From: Actinomycetales bacterium | GTDB lineage: Bacteria > Actinomycetota > Actinomycetes > Actinomycetales > Quadrisphaeraceae | Reading direction: 5' to 3' | Length of the DNA: 64,000 bases | Assembly (NCBI GenBank): GCA_022701985.1 | Contig: JAKONK010000068.1 | Coordinates: 1-64,000 of the forward strand | In this document: piece by piece, positions 12,630-53,839 of the stretch | Layout: the number at the start of each line of letters is the position of its first letter | Position numbering within the stretch: position 1 is the stretch's first letter | Made by a program: the position numbers and the translations under genes | The notes under the pieces: generated by a model | What the model saw: only the letters and a program-made list of their open reading frames with translations | What the model was told of the DNA's origin: nothing | The model's database searches: none

Positions 12630-12671
12630 TCTCAGACGGTGTCCGGGCCGGTGTCCCAGGAGGTGTCTCAG
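12624..12671. repeat. degenerate 12-bp tandem repeat, 4 units
   Basis: GCGGTGTCTCAG|ACGGTGTCCGGG|CCGGTGTCCCAG|GAGGTGTCTCAG; the last unit contains the LLM gene stop. Confidence 0.75.
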
Positions 12672-14523: not shown

Positions 14524-14952
14524 GTGACCGAGCAGACCACCGCCACCGCCAGCCCCGCCGCCTCCGGGACCGCGGGCGGCACGGCCCTGGCCGCTCCGGT
14601 GGTCGTCACCACCGCCCCGGTGCTGCCCCGGCCCGCGGCCACCCCGGACACCTTCACCTTCACCGCCCCGCCGGCAGCGCGCCACGCGCCCGCACCGGTC
14701 CGCCCCGCCGCGGTGCGCCTCACCTGGCTGTGGACGGCGACGGCGGTGGCCGTCGGCGTGCTGACGGCCTTCTTCGTGCTCATCGTGTCCGGCCGCGTGG
14801 TCACCGAGGGGCCGGTGGTCGCGGTGCTGACGCGCACCCACGGCATCCACCTGGGCGACCTGCTCGCCCTCGGCCTGTGGTGCGCCGCGACCGGCGCCCT
14901 GCTCGTCAACGCCCTGGTCACGACCGCCGCCGTCCGCGGCGACCGCAACTGA
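14524..14952 (+). CDS. small hypothetical membrane protein (two predicted TM helices)
   Basis: 142 aa MTEQTTATASPAASG...LTWLWTATAVAVGVLTAFFVLIVSGRVV...LGDLLALGLWCAATGALLVNALV. Confidence 0.65.
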   Translation: MTEQTTATASPAASGTAGGTALAAPVVVTTAPVLPRPAATPDTFTFTAPPAARHAPAPVRPAAVRLTWLWTATAVAVGVLTAFFVLIVSGRVVTEGPVVAVLTRTHGIHLGDLLALGLWCAATGALLVNALVTTAAVRGDRN

Positions 14953-14981
14953 CCCGCCGCTGACCCGCCGCTGACCCGGCC

Positions 14982-23090: not shown

Positions 23091-23942
23091 GTGAGCGAGC
23101 ACCAGGCCCCGGCGGGGCGCGTCGTCCTGGCCGGCACCCCCATCGGCAACCCCGAGGACGCCCCGCCCCGGCTCGCGGCGGCGCTGGCCACGGCCGACGT
23201 CATCGCCGCCGAGGACACCCGCCGCCTGCGGCGGCTGTGCGCTGCGCTGGGTGTCGTCCCCACCGGGCGGGTGGTGAGCTCGCACGAGCACAACGAGGGC
23301 GCCCGCGGGGCCGACCTCGTGGAGGCCGCCGCGCGGGGCGCCACCGTGCTGGTGGTCACCGACGCCGGCATGCCCACCGTCTCCGACCCCGGCTACCGGG
23401 TGGTGGTCGCCGCGGCCGAGGCCGGGGTGCGGGTCACCACGCTGCCCGGCCCCTCGGCGGTGCTGGCGGCCCTGGCCGTCTCGGGCCTGGCCACCGACAG
23501 GTTCTGCTTCGAGGGGTTCCTCCCCCGCAAGGCCGGTGAGCGGGCGACGGCGCTGGCCGAGCTCTCGCGCGAGCGCCGGACGATGGTGTTCTTCGAGGCG
23601 CCGCACCGGCTGGCGGTGTCGCTGGGGGCGATGGCGGAGGCCTTCGGCGCCGACCGGCCCGCCGCGGTCTGCCGCGAGCTCACCAAGACCCACGAGGAGG
23701 TCCGCCGCGGGCCGGTGGCCGAGCTGGCCGCCTGGGCGGGGGAGCTGGCCAAGATCGGCGAGGTGACCGTGGTGGTGGGCGGTGCGCCCGAGAGCGCCGC
23801 GGACCCGCAGCGCGCCCTGGCGGAGGTGCTCGAGCGCGTCGCCGCCGGCGACCGCCTCAAGGAGGCCGTGGCCGACGTCGCGCAGGCCACGGGGACGAGC
23901 AGGCGCGAGCTGTACGAGGCGGCCCTCGCGGCGCGCCGCTGA
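23091..23942 (+). CDS. rsmI: 16S rRNA (cytidine(1402)-2'-O)-methyltransferase
   Basis: VLAGTPIGNPEDAPPRLAAALATADVIAAEDTRR, VVTDAGMPTVSDPGYRVV, GFLPRK, FFEAPHRL, CRELTKTHEEVRRG. Confidence 0.96.
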   Translation: MSEHQAPAGRVVLAGTPIGNPEDAPPRLAAALATADVIAAEDTRRLRRLCAALGVVPTGRVVSSHEHNEGARGADLVEAAARGATVLVVTDAGMPTVSDPGYRVVVAAAEAGVRVTTLPGPSAVLAALAVSGLATDRFCFEGFLPRKAGERATALAELSRERRTMVFFEAPHRLAVSLGAMAEAFGADRPAAVCRELTKTHEEVRRGPVAELAAWAGELAKIGEVTVVVGGAPESAADPQRALAEVLERVAAGDRLKEAVADVAQATGTSRRELYEAALAARR

Positions 23943-23976
23943 CGGGTCGCTGACGGGCTGCTGACGGGCCGGGGCG

Positions 23977-25137
23977 TCAGCGCAGGACGTCGACCACCAC
24001 GGCGTCCTCGTCCGCGGACAGCTCGACCTCCAGGCCCCGCAGGGTGGAGGTGCGCTGCTGCACGGCGGCCGCCACCGCCGCCATGGAGGTGGGCGAGCCC
24101 ACGTGCACGACGGTCATCGCCACCTCGTGCGGGGGGCGGCGGGCGGTGATCTCGCCGTCGGTGCTGGCGTCCAGCACCGCGGCCACCAGACCCCGCAGCG
24201 CGCCGACGGCGCGCAGGTCGGCGCCCGGAGGGGCGTGGTCGACGACGTCGACGCGCACCCCCCGCGCCCGGGCCTGCGCCGCGGCGCGGCGCACGTCCGC
24301 GTCCATGAGGTCGCGGCCCCGCAGCTCGGCGCGCAGCTCGGCCTCCACCGCCGTCAGGCGGGCGCGCACCCGCTCCTCGAGCGGCCCCCGGGCGCCCGCC
24401 ACATCCTCCAGCAGCGGCACCGCGGTGCTCCGGAGCAGGTCGCGACGCCGGTCGCGGGCGGCCTCGCGGTCGCGGGCCCGCTCGCGGCGGTCGCGGGCCA
24501 GGGCGAAGGCGCCGTCGCTGCGCCTCAGGTCGAGCCGGGTGGTGCTCAGCAGCCGGCGCACCAGCACGCCTCCCGTCCACCACAGCAGGAGCGGGGCCCC
24601 CGAGACGAAGGACTGGGGCAACCACCACCGGTCGCCGCTGTCGGCGAGGGTGGTGGTGGCGATGACGACGCCGACCACGACGCCCGCGACGAGGCCGTGA
24701 GGCGCCCGCCCCCTCAGGGCGAGCACGCCGATGACGGGCGCCACCAGGCCCGGGAAGAACAGGCTCGTGGCGTCGGTGGGCTCGGACCCGACGGCGACGG
24801 CGTTGAGCACCGCCACCGCGGCCACGCCGAGCACCGCGGCGGTGGCGGTGGACGCCCGCAGGGCCACGCGGCCGGCGCGCAGCGGTGCCACCAGCGCGAG
24901 GCACAGCGCCACCGCGACCAGGGCCGTCAGCGCTCCCAGCAGCGGGTGGCCGAGCCGCGGCAGGCCGAGGCAGGCCAGCAGCACCTGGAGGCCGAGCCAG
25001 GTGGCCAGCGCCGCGGTCAGGGGCTCGCGGCGCAGGCCGAGCGGTCCCTCGGCGTCGAGGGACCTCGCGGCCGCAGGGGACGCGGCCGCGGGGGTGCGGG
25101 GCGCGGGGGAGGGCTGCGACGGCTGCGGGGGCGTCAC
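23977..25137 (-). CDS. membrane protein with cytoplasmic sensor-like C-terminus, translationally coupled to a histidine kinase
   Basis: GTG start 25137; about 8 TM stretches then coiled region ARDRRERARDREAARDRRRDLL; 4-bp overlap with the upstream kinase gene. Confidence 0.65.
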   Translation of the reverse strand: MTPPQPSQPSPAPRTPAAASPAAARSLDAEGPLGLRREPLTAALATWLGLQVLLACLGLPRLGHPLLGALTALVAVALCLALVAPLRAGRVALRASTATAAVLGVAAVAVLNAVAVGSEPTDATSLFFPGLVAPVIGVLALRGRAPHGLVAGVVVGVVIATTTLADSGDRWWLPQSFVSGAPLLLWWTGGVLVRRLLSTTRLDLRRSDGAFALARDRRERARDREAARDRRRDLLRSTAVPLLEDVAGARGPLEERVRARLTAVEAELRAELRGRDLMDADVRRAAAQARARGVRVDVVDHAPPGADLRAVGALRGLVAAVLDASTDGEITARRPPHEVAMTVVHVGSPTSMAAVAAAVQQRTSTLRGLEVELSADEDAVVVDVLR

Positions 25138-26288
25138 CGGGGCCACCGCAGCCGCACGGTCGTGCCCCGGCCGGGCGCGCTGGTCACCTCGGCGTCGCCG
25201 CCGGCACTGCGCATGCGGCCCACCACGGACACCCGGATGCCGAGGCGCCCCTCCGGCACGCGGTCGGGGTCGAACCCCGCGCCGTCGTCGCTGACCACGA
25301 GTCGGGCGCCGTCGCCGGCGAGGTGCCCCCGCACGCTGGAGGAGGTGCGGAGCGGGTTGTGGCGCGCGGTGTTGCGCAGCAGCTCGGTGGTGGCGTCGAC
25401 GAGGGCCTCGGCGGCGCTGCCGGGCAGGGAGCCCGGGCCGGCGGAGAGGGCGACGTCGGTGCCGGGGCGGGCGGTGGCCGCTGCGGCCCGCAGCTGCTGC
25501 ACGGCGAGGGCTGCGCTGACCACCAGGGTGGCGGGGCCGCGGGCGATGCCGTCGAGGGCGTCCCGGGCGGCCGCGGCGGCGGTGGCGACCTCCTCGGGCG
25601 AGCGCGCCGAGGCGGCCACCCGCAGCGCCGTGAGCACGTCGTCGTGCACGGCGGCCTCCCACCGGCTCCGCTCGGCCTCGGCGGTGACCAGGGCCTCGGC
25701 CTCGACGGCGGCGCGCGCCGCCGCGGCGCGCGCGGTGCGGACCCGGCTGGAGACGTCCTCCACGCCGCGCACCGCGGCGTAGACGGCAGCGCCGAGCCCG
25801 GCCAGGAAGGCCCCGTCGACCAGGGGCGAGGTGTGGGTCGCGCCGCTGGTGGCGGGGGTGCTGCGCAGGACCCCGAGGGTGCCCGCGCACACCGCCAGCA
25901 CCAGCCCGGCCCGCCAGGTCGGCCAGTCGCGCACCAGCACCGCTGCGGCGGCGACGGCGGCGACGGCCAGGAAGTACGCCCACGGCACCGGTGCGGCAGC
26001 ACCGGTCATGGGGCCGCTCAGCAGCCGCTGGGCGAGCAGGGCGGCGGAGCAGGTCACCAGGAGGGCGAGGGCCGGGGGACCGAGCGGGGCGGCGCACACC
26101 GCGGCCCTCACGACCGCCGCGAAGGCGGCCACCGCGGCCACCAGGAGCGAGACCTCCACGACACCGGGGCCCGCGGGACCCTCCACCACCAGGGTCACCG
26201 CGGCGGTGACCACGGGGACCACGCCCGTCAGCGCCAGCGCGGTGCCCACGAGCCGCTGACCCGTCGCCTGGGCGCGGGCGGGACTCAC
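25134..26288 (-). CDS. sensor histidine kinase (HisKA_3/NarL-type)
   Basis: TM N-terminus; SRWEAAVHDDVLTALRVAA H-box, VVSDDGAGFDPDRVPEGRLGIRVSVVGRMRSAGGDAEVTSAPGRGTTVRLRW HATPase motifs. Confidence 0.85.
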   Translation of the reverse strand: MSPARAQATGQRLVGTALALTGVVPVVTAAVTLVVEGPAGPGVVEVSLLVAAVAAFAAVVRAAVCAAPLGPPALALLVTCSAALLAQRLLSGPMTGAAAPVPWAYFLAVAAVAAAAVLVRDWPTWRAGLVLAVCAGTLGVLRSTPATSGATHTSPLVDGAFLAGLGAAVYAAVRGVEDVSSRVRTARAAAARAAVEAEALVTAEAERSRWEAAVHDDVLTALRVAASARSPEEVATAAAAARDALDGIARGPATLVVSAALAVQQLRAAAATARPGTDVALSAGPGSLPGSAAEALVDATTELLRNTARHNPLRTSSSVRGHLAGDGARLVVSDDGAGFDPDRVPEGRLGIRVSVVGRMRSAGGDAEVTSAPGRGTTVRLRWPR

Positions 26289-26314
26289 CGCCTGCTCACC
26301 GCCTGCTCACCGGG

Positions 26315-26968
26315 TCACGGGCGCTGCGGCGGACCGTCGCCGTCGTCGTCGAGCAGGCCCATGGTCTCGGCGACGTCGCGGAGCTCGAGCTTGCTGGTGG
26401 CGTGGACGTCGACGGCGGCCAGCTTGCTGCGGATCCGCTTGAGGTACTCCTTCACGGTGCCCTCGCCGATGCCCAGGCGCCGGGCCACGGACTTGGCGGG
26501 CAGGTCGGCGGCGTACAGGCGCAGCACCTGCCGCTCCTGGTGGGAGAGCAGGTCGTCGAGGTGGGGCGCGGTCTCCAGGGCCCGGGCCATGCGCACGGAG
26601 ACCACGGCCTCCCCGCGGTGGGCGGCGCGGACGGCCTCGACGAGCACGTCGAGCGGCTCGTCCTTGAGCACCACGCCCAGGGCGCCGCGCGCGACGGCGG
26701 CGTAGACCTGGGCGGGCTTGGCGCCGTCGGTGTAGACGACCACCTGCGCGCCACCGGACAGCAGCTGACCGGTGTTGGTGCCCGGGGTCGAGGCGTCGCC
26801 AAGGCGCAGGTCGAGCAGCACGACGTCCAGGTCGGAGCGCTCGGCGAGCAGCTGCTCCACCGTCGGCGCGCAGGCGACCAGCTCGACCTCAGGCGCCGCC
26901 GCCTCCAGGACGGTCTTCAGCCCCGCCAGCACCACCGGATGGTCGTCGACCGCCCCCACGAGCACCAT
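26315..26968 (-). CDS. LuxR/NarL-family response regulator
   Basis: MVLVGAVDDHPVVLAGLKTVLE...VVLLDLRLGD...GVVLKDEP; HTH LSHQERQVLRLYAADLPAKSVARRLGIGEGTVKEYLKRIRSKL. Confidence 0.9.
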   Translation of the reverse strand: MVLVGAVDDHPVVLAGLKTVLEAAAPEVELVACAPTVEQLLAERSDLDVVLLDLRLGDASTPGTNTGQLLSGGAQVVVYTDGAKPAQVYAAVARGALGVVLKDEPLDVLVEAVRAAHRGEAVVSVRMARALETAPHLDDLLSHQERQVLRLYAADLPAKSVARRLGIGEGTVKEYLKRIRSKLAAVDVHATSKLELRDVAETMGLLDDDGDGPPQRP

Positions 26969-28366: not shown

Positions 28367-28804
28367 TCAGGCACCGCCCCCGGGCAGGAGCGGGGCGAGC
28401 GAGGCGAGCAGGTCGTCGGCGCCCTGCAGCTGCTCCACCAGCTTGTCGCGGCGCCGGCGCACGTCGACCTCGAGGGCCGCCAGCTGCTGCAGCCGCTCCT
28501 CGTGGTCGGGGCCGGCGGCGCCCTCGGCGGAGACCGCGTCGAGCAGGGCCAGCACCTCGCGCATCTCGTCCAGGGTGAAGCCCAGGGGCTTCAGCCGGCG
28601 GATGGTGAGCATCTTCGCCAGCGCGTCCTCGCCGTAGAGGCGGTAGTTGCCGGGCGAGCGCCGCGCCGGGAGCAGGCCCTCGTCGTCGTAGTAGCGGACC
28701 GTGCGGTGGGACAGGGCCACGCGCTCGGCGATCTCCCCGACCGTCATCAGCCCCGCGGGCGGGCTGCCGTCCTGCGCCGCTGCGCCGGGTGCTGCCGTCT
28801 CCAC
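28367..28804 (-). CDS. MerR family transcriptional regulator
   Basis: 145 aa; TVGEIAERVALSHRTVRYYDDEGLLPARRSPGNYRLYGEDALAKMLTIRRLKPLGFTLDEMREVL. Confidence 0.93.
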   Translation of the reverse strand: METAAPGAAAQDGSPPAGLMTVGEIAERVALSHRTVRYYDDEGLLPARRSPGNYRLYGEDALAKMLTIRRLKPLGFTLDEMREVLALLDAVSAEGAAGPDHEERLQQLAALEVDVRRRRDKLVEQLQGADDLLASLAPLLPGGGA

Positions 28805-28918
28805 CGTGCCTCCTGCGCCGTGCTGACGTGCTGACGTGCTGGCCTTCCATCCTGCCCCACGGGCGGGCGTCCCGGTCGGGCCCGGTCGGGCCCTCGGTGG
28901 CGTCAGGCAGTCAGGCCG

Positions 28919-29554
28919 TCAGGCAGTCAGCCCGGTGCCGCTGGCGGCGGCCGGGTCCCACGCGGAGAACTCCTCCGCGTGGGCGGGGCACAGCGACGTC
29001 GTGGCCGTCGCCTCCACGTCGTAGGCGGCGTCGAGGTCGAGCTCGACGCCGGCCCAGCGCTCCAGCAGCGCCGCGTCGGCCGCCTGCGGGTCCGCCCCGG
29101 CGTCCAGGTCGTCGCAGAAGCCGTGGCCCATGGCCAGGAGGGTCTCGTCGTCGAAGGCGAAGTAGGTCTCGTCCCACAGCCCGTCGATGAAGTCCTGCTC
29201 GTCCTGCGTGAGCGAGGGCGCCGTCCCGTCCTCGGCGCGGACCGCGGTCACCGGCCCCGCTGCCGAGGACAGGCCGACCAGGGCGGCCACGGGCAGGGCC
29301 GCGGTGCAGGCGAGCAGGACGAAGGCCGACGCCGTCAGCCCGACGACGGCGTGGGTGGCGCCCACCCCGCCCCGCCGCCGCGCCCGGGACAGGCCCAGCA
29401 GTCCCAGCACGACACCCAGTGCCGCGCACGGCAGCGCGACCACCCACGACCAGACGGCTGCGCGGTTGGTCACCCGCGCGGGCGGCCACGGGGCCGCGGG
29501 TCCGCCGGAGGTGGGGTCCTCGCCCTGCCGGGGCGCGCGGGTCGGGTCGTCCAC
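28919..29554 (-). CDS. DUF4190-like membrane segment with DUF732-like C-terminal domain
   Basis: Likely GTG start 29554 (VDDPTRAPRQGEDP...); two TM helices; EQDFIDGLWDETYFAFDDETLLAMGHGFCDDLDAG. Confidence 0.65.
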   Translation of the reverse strand: MDDPTRAPRQGEDPTSGGPAAPWPPARVTNRAAVWSWVVALPCAALGVVLGLLGLSRARRRGGVGATHAVVGLTASAFVLLACTAALPVAALVGLSSAAGPVTAVRAEDGTAPSLTQDEQDFIDGLWDETYFAFDDETLLAMGHGFCDDLDAGADPQAADAALLERWAGVELDLDAAYDVEATATTSLCPAHAEEFSAWDPAAASGTGLTA

Positions 29555-30751: not shown

Positions 30752-31452
30752 GGCCGCGCCACCGCGCGGCGACCGCGCTCCTCGCCCTTGCACTGGTGGG
30801 CGGCGTCGCTGGTGCCGCCGCCGGTGCCGCCTCCGGCCGGTCCGCCCCCGCGGCGGCGACACCGGTGAGCGCCGCGGCCGCGGCGCCGTCCCCGACCGCC
30901 GCTCAGGAGCCGCTCGAGCCCGCGGGCGACCGCGAGGGGTTCGCACCCTCGGTGGCCCTGGACGCCGACCCGGCCGCCGTCCAGCCTCCTGCACAGGACT
31001 CCGCAGCCCCGGTCCCGGTGGAGGTGGCCGTCCCGCGCATCGGCGTCGACACGCCGCTGGTGCAGCTGGGCATCGCCCCCGACGGGTCGCTGGAGGTGCC
31101 CGGGCGCGGTGAGTTCGACCGCGCCGGGTGGCTCACGACGAGCGCCGTGCCCGGGGAGCCCGGGGCCAGCGTGATCGCCGGACACGTCGACTCGACCTCG
31201 GGCCCCGCGGTCTTCTACCGCCTGCACGAGCTGGTCCCCGGTGACGAGGTGCGGGTGCAGCGGGCCGACGGGCGGACGGAGGTCTTCACCGTCGACGAGG
31301 TCCGGCGCGTGAGCAAGGACGCGTTCCCCACGGCGGAGGTCTACGGGCCCCAGCCGGGACCGGTCCTGCGCCTGGTCACCTGCGGTGGGGAGTTCGACCG
31401 GGCCACCGGCCACTACACGGACAACGTCATCGCCTTTGCGAGCGCAGCGTGA
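30748..31452 (+). CDS. class F sortase
   Basis: GTG 30748, 4-bp overlap; VAVPRIGVDTPLVQLGIAPDGSLEVPGRGEFDRAGWLTTSAVPGEPGASVIAGHVDSTSGPAVFYRLHELVPGDEV...LRLVTCGGEFDRATGHYTDNVIAFA. Confidence 0.93.
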   Translation: MRPRHRAATALLALALVGGVAGAAAGAASGRSAPAAATPVSAAAAAPSPTAAQEPLEPAGDREGFAPSVALDADPAAVQPPAQDSAAPVPVEVAVPRIGVDTPLVQLGIAPDGSLEVPGRGEFDRAGWLTTSAVPGEPGASVIAGHVDSTSGPAVFYRLHELVPGDEVRVQRADGRTEVFTVDEVRRVSKDAFPTAEVYGPQPGPVLRLVTCGGEFDRATGHYTDNVIAFASAA

Positions 31453-31601: not shown

Positions 31602-32135
31602 GTGTTGTCAGTGGAGAGGCTCGTCGCGCTCAGCCGCGACCACAGGGCGCGCTTCGCCCTCGTCGGGCTCGGCATCACCGGCGTGCACTTCCTGGTCCTC
31701 GCGGCCCTGCTGCCGGTGGTCGTGCCCGAGGTCGCCAACGCGCTCGCCTTCGTGGTGGCCACCCAGGTCAACTTCGCGGTCAGCTACTCCTGGACCTGGG
31801 CCTCGCGCCGCGGTCCGGGCCGAGAGGGCCCGCGGCAGCTGGCGCGCCGGCTGGGTCTGTTCAACGCCTCGGCGCTGGTGGCGTTCGCCGTGAACGCCGC
31901 GGCCTTCGCCGGCGCCCACCGCCTCCTCGACACCCCGCCGCTGGTCAGCGCGGTGGTCGCGACCGTGCTGAGCGCCGTCGTCTCCTTCGTCGTCAGCTCC
32001 CGCCTGGTCTTCGCCCGGCGGACGCTGGCCCCCGCCCCCGGTCCGGTGGTGCAGCTGCCCGCTGGCCACGGCCCCGTGCTGGAGCTCCCGGTCGACGCCC
32101 CGGCGTCCCGGGCCCCCACCTCGCGCTCCGCCTGA
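31602..32135 (+). CDS. GtrA family protein (copy 1)
   Basis: ARFALVGLGITGVHFLVLAALLPVVVPEVANALAFVVATQVNFAVSYSWTWASRRGPGREGPRQ. Confidence 0.88.
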   Translation: MLSVERLVALSRDHRARFALVGLGITGVHFLVLAALLPVVVPEVANALAFVVATQVNFAVSYSWTWASRRGPGREGPRQLARRLGLFNASALVAFAVNAAAFAGAHRLLDTPPLVSAVVATVLSAVVSFVVSSRLVFARRTLAPAPGPVVQLPAGHGPVLELPVDAPASRAPTSRSA

Positions 32136-32248
32136 ACCCCGCACCACCGCACCACCGCACGCAGGTCCCGACCCGCCCACCGGGTCGCCCCGCTGCGCCG
32201 CCCGCGCGCTCCACAGCGCCGAACGACACGAGGAAGAGGTACTCCGTG

Positions 32249-37635: not shown

Positions 37636-39299
37636 GCACCGCCCTGGACGACCGCACCCTCGCTCCGGGCGAGCAGCCCGGCGCACCGGCAGCCCGCGGC
37701 GCGCGCGCGGCGGGCCCCGCGGGCCGCCTCCCCGCCCTGCGCCGCTCGGCCGGGCGCGCGTGGGACGGGGTCGAGGCCTTCGCCGCGCGGCACCGCCTCG
37801 CCGTCGTCGCCGCTGTGCAGCTGGTCTGCGCCGCTGCGGTCCTGGCCCTGTCGCGGCTGTACTTCGTCGGGCTGAGCATGCGCCTCGACGAGGCCCAGAG
37901 CCTCGGCCAGACCGACCACCGCTACTCCGAGGTGCTCGTCACCGTCGCCCAGGACGTGCACGTCCCGGGCTACCACCTGCTCCTGCGCACCTGGCGGCTG
38001 CTGTACGGGACGGACCTGGAGACCGCGCGGGCCCTGTCGCTCCTCTTCTTCCTGGCGGCCATCCCCCTGCTGTACCTGGTGGCGCGCAAGGCGCTGGACA
38101 CGCGGTGGTCGCTGTTCGCCGTCGTCGTCTTCAGCCTGTCGCCGTTCATGAACTGGTACGGCAACGAGGCGCGGATGTACACGATGCTGGTGCTGGTCAC
38201 CCTGGCCAGCCAGCTGTTCTTCCTCAAGGTGCTCGACCCGGCCGCCACCGGTCGGTGGGCCCCCTGGGCCGCGTACGCCGCCACCGCCGTGGTCGGCGCC
38301 TACACGCACTACTTCTTCCTGTTCGTGCTCTTCGCGCAGGGCGCGTTCTTCCTCGCCTCCCGGGTGGGGCGGAGCTGGCGCGGGGTGGGCCGGATGGCCG
38401 CCACCGCCGTGCTCGTCTGCCTGGCGCTGGTCCCGTGGCTGCTGTACTTCACCGCCAGCGGCGCGGCCTCCGACACCCGGCCCCAGCTGCCGTCGCCGTC
38501 GTCGGTCGACTTCTCCAACGTCTACTCCCAGTTCCTCTTCGGGTTCCAGAGCGACGCCGCCAACACCATGCTCGTGGCCGCCTGGCCCCTGCTGGCCCTC
38601 GCGGGCCTGGCCAGCGTCCGGGTGGGGGTGCGCATGTCGCGCGCCACGGCCTACCTGCTGGTGGCGGCGTTCGGGCCGGTGCTGCTGGCTTTCGCCGTCA
38701 GCCACCTCGTCACGCCGTTCTTCCTGTCCCGCTACATGATCGCGGCGCTGCCGGCGCTGCTCGTCGTGGTCGCGGCGTTCCTGCGGATGCTGTCGCGGCG
38801 CGTCGGCGTGGTGCTCGCGGCGGTGCTGCTGGTCGCGACGGTGGTGGGCACCGGGGTGCAGGCCACCTCGTCGGCCACCCCCGTCAAGGAGGACTACCGC
38901 GGTGCGGCCGAGCTGCTGGAGGCGAAGGTGACGCCGTCCGACCTCGTGGTGGTCAGCTCGCCGTTCACCATCTGGCCGTTCGAGCGGTACTACGACGGCG
39001 ACGCGCGCGTGGTGACCCTGCCCGAGTGGGACCGCCGCCAGGAGGGCGGCCTGCCCGCCTTCGACGAGGCCGCGCTGCCCGCCCAGGTCGACGAGCTCGT
39101 CGCCGGCCACCAGCGGGTGTACCTGCTGCTCAGCTACGACCAGGGCTACGAGGACGCGGTGGAGCAGTACTTCCGCAGCCAGTACCAGCAGGTCTACGCC
39201 CAGGAGGTCTCCCCGGGGATGCAGCTGGTGGGCTTCCGCACGGGGTACAGCCAGAACAGCCCCGTCGAGGACCAGCAGCGCACTGCACCCCGCCGCTGA
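37632..39299 (+). CDS. GT39-family/ArnT-like membrane glycosyltransferase
   Basis: SMRLDEAQSLGQTDHRYSEVL, DVHVPGYHLLLRTW, FSPFMNWYGNEARMYTMLVLVTLAS; many TM helices. Confidence 0.88.
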   Translation: MSTALDDRTLAPGEQPGAPAARGARAAGPAGRLPALRRSAGRAWDGVEAFAARHRLAVVAAVQLVCAAAVLALSRLYFVGLSMRLDEAQSLGQTDHRYSEVLVTVAQDVHVPGYHLLLRTWRLLYGTDLETARALSLLFFLAAIPLLYLVARKALDTRWSLFAVVVFSLSPFMNWYGNEARMYTMLVLVTLASQLFFLKVLDPAATGRWAPWAAYAATAVVGAYTHYFFLFVLFAQGAFFLASRVGRSWRGVGRMAATAVLVCLALVPWLLYFTASGAASDTRPQLPSPSSVDFSNVYSQFLFGFQSDAANTMLVAAWPLLALAGLASVRVGVRMSRATAYLLVAAFGPVLLAFAVSHLVTPFFLSRYMIAALPALLVVVAAFLRMLSRRVGVVLAAVLLVATVVGTGVQATSSATPVKEDYRGAAELLEAKVTPSDLVVVSSPFTIWPFERYYDGDARVVTLPEWDRRQEGGLPAFDEAALPAQVDELVAGHQRVYLLLSYDQGYEDAVEQYFRSQYQQVYAQEVSPGMQLVGFRTGYSQNSPVEDQQRTAPRR

Positions 39300-39406
39300 C
39301 CCTCCGCTGACCCGCCGAGGGGCACCTCGGGGCGGGCTCGCCGAAACCCCTCCCGGCGGCGTCACCGGACCACATACTGGCCGCAGGTGACGTCCCGGGA
39401 GGGATC

Positions 39407-52150: not shown

Positions 52151-52210
52151 GCGGGTGGCTCCTCGCCGTCGAGGGTCAGGGGGTCAGCTGGTCAGGGGCG
52201 TGTGCGCCGT

Positions 52211-52232
52211 CGCCTCGCGTCAGCGCGAGGCG
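52211..52232 (-). promoter_or_regulatory. perfect 9-bp hairpin with the solute-binding protein stop codon in the loop
   Basis: CGCCTCGCG-TCAG-CGCGAGGCG. Confidence 0.7.
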
Positions 52233-53839
52233 GCGTACTCGTCGTAGTAGCGCTGGCGGATCTCGACGTTCTCGGCGAGCCCGACGTCGAGCACGGTCTC
52301 GACGTGCTCGTCCCAGTCGCGGGTGGCGCCCCCGCGGGTCACCCACTGCGCGAACTGCGGCATCACCACGCCCAGGACCGCGGTGTCGTTGAGGCTGGAG
52401 ACGAGGGTGTCGTCCTCGTCCAGCTTCAGGAACGGCTGCGGGTACACGTCGCGGAGCACGTCCACGCCGTCGTAGGCAGGCTGCAGCGGGGCGGAGTCGG
52501 CCACGGCCTCGGACAGGTCGGCCGGCAGCTGCACCTCCATCTCCGGGCGGATGAAGAAGGGACCGTTGTCGGCGACGGTCGAGGTCCACTTCCAGGTCGA
52601 CGGGTCGAGCGCCGGGTCGGCCGGCGGCAGCACGGTGTACTGCTCGTCACCGGTCTTCTCGACGTTGGTGCCCAGGTCTCCCCACAGCACCTGGACCGAG
52701 GTGTCGGGGGCGTAGAACTGGTCGACCATCCGCAGCACGGCGTCCTTGTGCGGCGTGGACGCGGACACCAGCACCGCGTTGGGCGTGAGGTTCTCGTAGT
52801 CCCAGCTCCAGCGCACCGGGGCGCTCTGCCCGGCCTCCTGCTGCAGCTGGCCGATCGCGGCGTACTGCTGGTAGACGCCGGGGCCGAACCGGTCCGAGGC
52901 CGACCAGCCCCAGCTGAAGCCGACCCGCGCCTGGTCACCGGTGCCGCGCGCCACCGACTGGTAGGTGGAGTAGTCCTGGGTGAAGGCGTCGGGGCTCATG
53001 AGCCCGGCCTCCCAGCAGCGGTGGAGGAACTCCACCAGGTCGCGGTAGCGCTCGTCGACGAAGAGGTTCTTGACCTCGCCGTCCTCCAGGAAGTAGCCGT
53101 TGCCGCCGCCGTTGACCACCTGCATGCCGGTGGAGCCGAGCAGCGCGGTCGGCTGGAAGTAGCCGAAGCCGGTGGTGCCGACGGGGGAGAAGTCCAGGGG
53201 GATCTCGTCGGCCTGCCCGTTGCCGTTGGGGTCGCCCTCCTTGAAGGCGGTGAGGACGTCGAACAGCTCGTCCCAGGTGGTGGGAGCCTCCAGGCCGAGC
53301 GTGTCGAGCCACTGCTGGTTGACGTACTGGTGCGTGATCGCCTGCGGCCAGTACTTCTTGTAGCTCGGCAGGGCCCTGATCGCCCCGTCGCGCGTGACCA
53401 GGTCCTGCGCGCCGTCGACCTCGTCGAACATCGCCTGCGCGTTGGGCAGCGCGTCCATGTCGTCGCTGAGGTCCTCGAACAGCGAGTGGAACGTCACCAG
53501 GTCCTGGTCGGTGACGGCGTTGAAGCCGATGATGACGTCGGGCACGTCACCGGCGGCGAGCATGGGGTTCTTCTTCTGGTCCCAGTCGGAGGAGACCTCC
53601 TCCCACTCCACCGGCACCCCCGCGACCTCCTCGAGCTGCTGCACCCAGGCCATCTCGGCCATCGGCTTGGTCAGGCCGTGCTTGACGACCATCACGGAGA
53701 TGCTGTCGTCGGCCTGCGCGTCGGCGCCGCAGCCGCTGAGCAGCAGGCCGGCCGCGGCGCACGAGGCGACCAGGCCGGTGACCCGCCGGCTCCGCCCGCG
53801 GGGCCGCCGGGGGTGGGGTCGAGGTGCTGTCGCTGGCAT
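52220..53839 (-). CDS. extracellular solute-binding lipoprotein (LplA-like)
   Basis: ATG 53839; lipobox VASCAAAGLLLSGCGADAQAD; LDTLGLEAPTTWDELFDVLTAFKEGDPNGNGQADEIPL. Confidence 0.93.
   Translation of the reverse strand: MPATAPRPHPRRPRGRSRRVTGLVASCAAAGLLLSGCGADAQADDSISVMVVKHGLTKPMAEMAWVQQLEEVAGVPVEWEEVSSDWDQKKNPMLAAGDVPDVIIGFNAVTDQDLVTFHSLFEDLSDDMDALPNAQAMFDEVDGAQDLVTRDGAIRALPSYKKYWPQAITHQYVNQQWLDTLGLEAPTTWDELFDVLTAFKEGDPNGNGQADEIPLDFSPVGTTGFGYFQPTALLGSTGMQVVNGGGNGYFLEDGEVKNLFVDERYRDLVEFLHRCWEAGLMSPDAFTQDYSTYQSVARGTGDQARVGFSWGWSASDRFGPGVYQQYAAIGQLQQEAGQSAPVRWSWDYENLTPNAVLVSASTPHKDAVLRMVDQFYAPDTSVQVLWGDLGTNVEKTGDEQYTVLPPADPALDPSTWKWTSTVADNGPFFIRPEMEVQLPADLSEAVADSAPLQPAYDGVDVLRDVYPQPFLKLDEDDTLVSSLNDTAVLGVVMPQFAQWVTRGGATRDWDEHVETVLDVGLAENVEIRQRYYDEYAASR

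Follow-up and report, generated by a model that had tools for sequence, protein, structure and literature searches.

The window analyzed here, a 64,000-nucleotide stretch of contig C48 in a 3.84-Mb draft genome with 75.7% GC (G000), carries on its forward strand the gene rsmI (23091–23942), which encodes 16S rRNA (cytidine(1402)-2'-O)-methyltransferase (TIGR00096, E 3.7e-59). An 11-nt tandem array on the same strand (23935–23971; period 11 and 3.4 copies according to TRF) runs across the rsmI stop codon, the TGA at 23940, and reads GCTGACGGGTC GCTGACGGGCT GCTGACGGGCC at 23938–23970. Both the sequence and TRF bear out the preliminary description of this gene end, namely, that TGA is present in all three frames: at 23940, the rsmI stop itself, at 23951, and at 23962. 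The convergent gene on the reverse strand (23977–25146), for which there is no Pfam or NCBIfam match, has its TGA stop (TCA on the forward strand) at 23977–23979. When tested for a hairpin terminator, the rsmI end was found to fold no more stably than shuffled sequence (z +1.41).

The rsmI protein is 97% identical to that of Quadrisphaera sp. INWT6, in which the gene ends in a 14-nt array, with a unit unlike that of the 11-nt array in G000. Compared to G000, INWT6 rsmI (L061, 10640–10900) has a 1-nt deletion near the 3' end, which shifts the C-terminal frame, and the shifted frame terminates at the third TGA of the 14-nt array. The deletion could be an assembly error; provided that it is real, this gene can illustrate how a rotated stop catches a frameshift. 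A loose BLAST search of the window against L061 also gave matches off the main diagonal, which were dismissed as noise. In NZ_VDMJ01000050.1 (L062), deposited as Streptomyces sp. NP160, rsmI is 85% identical to that of G000 and its end equals that of another member of the genus, G003, suggesting that this genome is probably a misnamed Quadrisphaera. In Arthrobacter bambusae (L138), a 22-nt tandem repeat at the rsmI end gives TAG in three frames; thus, other Actinobacteria, too, have frame-rotating duplications across stops, made of longer units.

Seven further sites in the window had been put forward as gene-end arrays, and four of these are real arrays at gene ends. An 11-nt array of CTGACCCGCCG (2.7 copies; 14949–14978, forward strand) extends across the stop of gene 14524–14952 and is also located downstream of the stop of the convergent gene. 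On the reverse strand, an 11-nt array of GTGAGCAGGCG (26284–26312) directly follows the stop (26315–26317) of a gene for a LuxR-type response regulator, and the same end in INWT6 bears an 11-nt array with a different unit. An 8-nt array, TGCCTGAC on the reverse strand (28902–28930), lies across the stop at 28919–28921, and an 11-nt array of CCCGCCGCTGA (2.6 copies; 39289–39317, forward strand) across the stop at 39297. The array placed at 52192 is equally real (8-nt, TGACCAGC TGACCCCC TGACCCTC on the reverse strand, 52173–52198), but it is situated ~25 nt past the stop of gene 52220–53839, within the following gene's leader and just before its start, rather than at the stop itself. Two sites did not hold up: at 31450, there is merely TGAC twice, 10 nt apart, and the 14206 site falls inside a low-scoring open reading frame, with no confident gene end. 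Outside that list, an 8-nt array of CCGCACCA (2.8 copies; 32139–32160, forward strand), which contains no stop codons, lies just past the stop at 32133, and a degenerate 12-nt array on the reverse strand, which keeps the frame and is absent from INWT6, follows the stop at 12670. A counter-example is provided by an 8-nt array in the 5' leader of reverse-strand gene 28367–28804, at no gene end (TCAGCACG on the reverse strand, 28819–28841), which means that arrays are not restricted to stops; its copy layout differs in INWT6.

For a broader survey, we analyzed about 1.75 Mb of two Quadrisphaera genomes, i.e., 1.37 Mb (36%) of G000 and 0.4 Mb of G005, with genes called by a home-made gene caller (1036 gene ends). 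Following TGA stops in the two genomes, a further TGA occurs 20 times at +8 (8.9 expected, 2.2-fold), 31 times at +11 (8.6 expected, 3.6-fold), and 15 times at +14 (8.2 expected), with a slight excess at +12 (12 versus 8.5) and no enrichment at +9 (3 versus 8.9) or +10 (8 versus 8.7). An excess is also seen outside the window (13 versus 6.4 at +8 and 22 versus 6.1 at +11) and in G005 alone (4 versus 2.0 and 6 versus 2.0, respectively). Thus, the lack of genome-wide enrichment at +8/+11 over +9/+12 that the preliminary description had named as refuting its pattern was not observed. Similarly, within 36 nt past the stop, −1-frame stops number 81 at codirectional ends, compared with 36.9 (sd 5.5) in dinucleotide shuffles, and 36 at convergent ends, compared with 13.1 (sd 3.4). 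Collectively, the stop pattern after genes is beyond chance, and the TGA excess at +8 and +11 is owed mainly to repeats.

Arrays are indeed abundant at these 1036 ends: 25 extend across the stop (1.0 expected), 66 start within 40 nt past it (4.2 expected), and 40 start further out (6.8 expected). Located 0–50 nt past stops and sharing no common unit sequence, they reach a density of 2.43/kb within 45 nt of the stop, versus 0.51–0.80/kb near starts or in mid-intergenic DNA (Fisher p 3e-11). Their period does not depend on the presence of a stop codon, with stop-free arrays near stops also peaking at 11 (16/77). In coding DNA, 535 of 593 arrays have a period divisible by 3, only multiples of three surviving in genes, and the peak is at 12 (excess 58, versus 28 at 9 and 15 at 15). 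The ~11-nt period thus appears to be a property of the DNA, common to arrays with and without stops.

The same preference emerges from triple TGAs, which in this genome are spaced by 11 nt in 54 cases, by 10 in 8, and by 8 in 15 (66, 13, and 25, respectively, in G005). Triple TGAs with spacing 10 thus occur ~7 times less often in G000 than those with spacing 11, although both rotate the frame equally. Across 21 other genomes of this order, the two spacings do not differ and both are rare, with 37 cases of spacing 11 and 40 of spacing 10 in total (34 versus 5 in this genome). In other Actinobacteria, arrays across stops are about as frequent (9/431 and 8/331), and their periods are longer and scattered; the Kineococcus plasmid pKRAD01, with only 38 ends, is too small a sample. 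It is the 11-bp period that is genus-specific and, as far as a limited literature search can tell, such an 11-nt step at gene ends has not been described. We note that several loci contain a (T)TGACC direct repeat with 11-nt spacing and variable spacers, common to members of the genus (G000:C77:30461, C198:18125 and 21564, C222:2444, C244:21349, and C260:16682; G002:C6:328948 and 332978 and G002:C5:194956), which looks more like a direct-repeat binding site than a stop array.

The left edges of frame-rotating arrays indicate where such repeats can begin. Per 1000 start positions, there are 0.2–0.35 edges within coding sequence, 2.14 at −8 to 0, 2.76 at +1 to +9, and 1.99 and 2.02 in the intervals out to +27, with lower values beyond. 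The edges switch on at −8, the first position from which copy one of an 11-nt unit keeps the stop. This step at the coding boundary, with no peak at the stop, argues that the stop codon does not act as a seed. Arrays begin over the stop as often (2.1 per 1000) as just downstream (2.0–2.8), contrary to the earlier suggestion of a slippage process seeded at TGA.

The DNA in which the arrays reside is poorly conserved. In 64 intergenic regions compared between two species across near-stop, mid-codirectional, mid-divergent, and near-start DNA, the 45 nt past stops are the least conserved, with 74.0% identity and 11.4% gaps, versus 85.4% identity in mid-codirectional, 84.8% in mid-divergent, and 89.7% in near-start DNA, with gaps of 1–4% in these three classes; duplications can therefore accumulate past stops. 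Among 69 orthologous ends, 14 have arrays in this genome, 13 in G005, and 7 in both, often with another unit or period. The orthologues at L200|933 differ by one 11/12-nt unit, and the G005 end at 242957 has five TGAG copies, against none at the corresponding end in this genome. Judging from these comparisons, arrays are gained, lost, and rewritten fast.

We consider it probable that the stop arrays are short tandem duplications, with a preferred unit of ~11 bp (also 8–12), arising from slippage during replication or from comparable local errors of copying. Of the origins proposed in the preliminary description, slippage is the one supported by the data: orthologous ends differ in copy number, in unit, and in the very presence of an array, and the coding period of 12 matches. 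Slippage would be the molecular process, and the preferred unit would correspond to about one turn of DNA, the helical turn presumably setting the 11-nt preference. A duplication beginning no more than 8 nt before the stop spares the protein, with the first copy retaining the stop, so that the boundary between coding and non-coding DNA fixes the left edge of the arrays. If the duplicated segment contains TGA, every copy carries it and, since 11 and 8 are both 2 mod 3, the frame rotates with each copy. Termination in all frames would then be a by-product, which may occasionally help, as in INWT6 rsmI.

Alternatively, the extra TGAs could be kept by selection for termination in all frames, chiefly in the −1 frame, which in genes with 75.7% GC rarely meets a stop, letting frameshifted ribosomes overrun. 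Inside genes, hidden stops indeed occur at 0.33 per 100 codons in the −1 phase, versus 1.38 in the +1 phase, and the excess of −1-frame stops past both codirectional and convergent ends, as well as the INWT6 rsmI frameshift that terminates at a rotated TGA, would fit this explanation. However, the bulk of the excess lies within repeats, and inside these repeats, TGA is no better kept than its flanks (17/101, versus 27–32% for control triplets; at lag 11, 11 TGAs are intact and 9 have one change). Outside arrays, sense-strand TGA does not exceed TCA (165 versus 172), and spacing 10 shows no enrichment like that of spacing 11. Selection for frame rotation, also considered earlier, is thus not needed to account for the pattern. 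In bacteria, in-frame additional stop codons have been tested for selection, and none was found (PMC6764699).

What speaks for termination being selected is a weak residue outside the repeats. Even with repeats masked, the −1 phase has the most TGAs (67 versus 43 and 55), with the phase bias reaching p of about 0.02–0.1 by our counts. A shadow of coding phase, tried as an explanation of this bias, was rejected: among trinucleotides past stops, phase bias is strongest for TGA and for CTG, which overlaps it. TGAs without spacer similarity number 9 at +8, 12 at +11, and 10 at +14, versus 5 at +10 and 3 at +12; for +8, +11, and +14, this makes 31 ends, compared to the ~15 that we estimate from a 1% background. 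Furthermore, periods divisible by 3 are less frequent among stop-containing arrays (8/45) than among their stop-free neighbours (26/77; p 0.06). Given this weak surplus of −1-frame stops that show no similarity to repeats, selection may play a small part, as a minority possibility. Selection for all-frame termination as the explanation of the pattern is unlikely, and so is the combined scenario in which Quadrisphaera, nearly devoid of −1-frame stops in its genes, draws on tandem duplication for raw material and retains the off-frame TGAs just past genes to catch −1-frameshifted ribosomes. Were it true, bacteria would have in this catch a fail-safe system of downstream, off-frame stops that is, to our knowledge, without precedent.

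Still less probable is that the arrays serve transcript ends as an RNA or DNA element, for instance as regularly spaced, C-rich sites for Rho loading or as a binding site spaced by 11 nt, in which the TGAs would be incidental. The position of the arrays past stops is as expected for such an element, and Rho sites have a spacing near 11–12 nt. Ends with arrays are also more C-skewed (0.064 versus 0.024) and less folded than other ends (z −0.56 versus −1.31), and some of the spacing-11 TGA matches resemble the (T)TGACC direct repeats common to the species. Yet arrays are present at only a few percent of ends, orthologues gain and lose them freely, the units have no sequence in common, 8-nt and 14-nt arrays occupy like places, and the period preference recurs, as 12, in coding DNA. 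Reading the arrays as hairpins or terminators was rejected, with folds no better than those of shuffled sequences and the array ends being the less folded ones; shuffling the convergent gaps yields inverted repeats only slightly shorter than the real ones. Finally, fossil stops, left off-frame just downstream by a C-terminal frameshift, would by our reasoning likewise fall in the +2 phase when genes are GC-rich, but they are very improbable, given that at ends with a non-repeat −1-phase TGA, the current frame is fully coding right up to the stop (4.5, controls 3.4), unlike the other frame (−7.2, controls −5.5), and that the repeats would be left unexplained.

These gene ends show how a duplication bias, together with weak constraint on 3' flanks, can give rise to a seemingly designed stop pattern, which calls for caution in tests of fail-safe stops. 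The counts presented here provide a baseline against which real selection on −1-frame stops can be measured, and the genus-specific 11-bp duplication step invites a search for the enzyme or repair process behind it.

Several known systems invite comparison. Like the fail-safe stops examined in bacteria (PMC6764699) and the out-of-frame stops of the ambush hypothesis, tests of which concern coding sequence (PMC5909447), the extra stops described here would end readthrough or frameshifted translation. Unlike those stops, which are in frame downstream or lie within genes, the present ones are downstream, off-frame, and repeat-borne, without clear evidence of selection; of the signs expected for fail-safe stops, extra stops are enriched, but they are neither better kept than their surroundings nor, outside repeats, more common than TCA. 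Marine Beggiatoaceae have TAACTGA direct repeats (PMC4679880) that are likewise short and intergenic; their unit length is no multiple of 3, they provide stops in every frame, and some overlap the stop of the upstream gene. However, they consist of one fixed 7-nt unit, point mostly towards downstream starts, and have been proposed as a regulator site, whereas here each site has a unit of its own. The bacterial LSSR, repeats with units of several nucleotides that are ascribed to polymerase slippage (as summarized in PMC4679880) and reported from hosts including Actinobacteria, differ in that heptamers are the most common, as opposed to 11-mers (8–12) that cluster in the 45 nt past stops and have a rapidly changing unit sequence. 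Nevertheless, both are made of short head-to-tail units, are mostly non-coding unless the unit is a multiple of 3, and have slippage as the proposed origin, and three features of LSSR are also found in Quadrisphaera: units beyond chance in non-coding DNA, multiples of 3 in genes, and changes in copy number between relatives.
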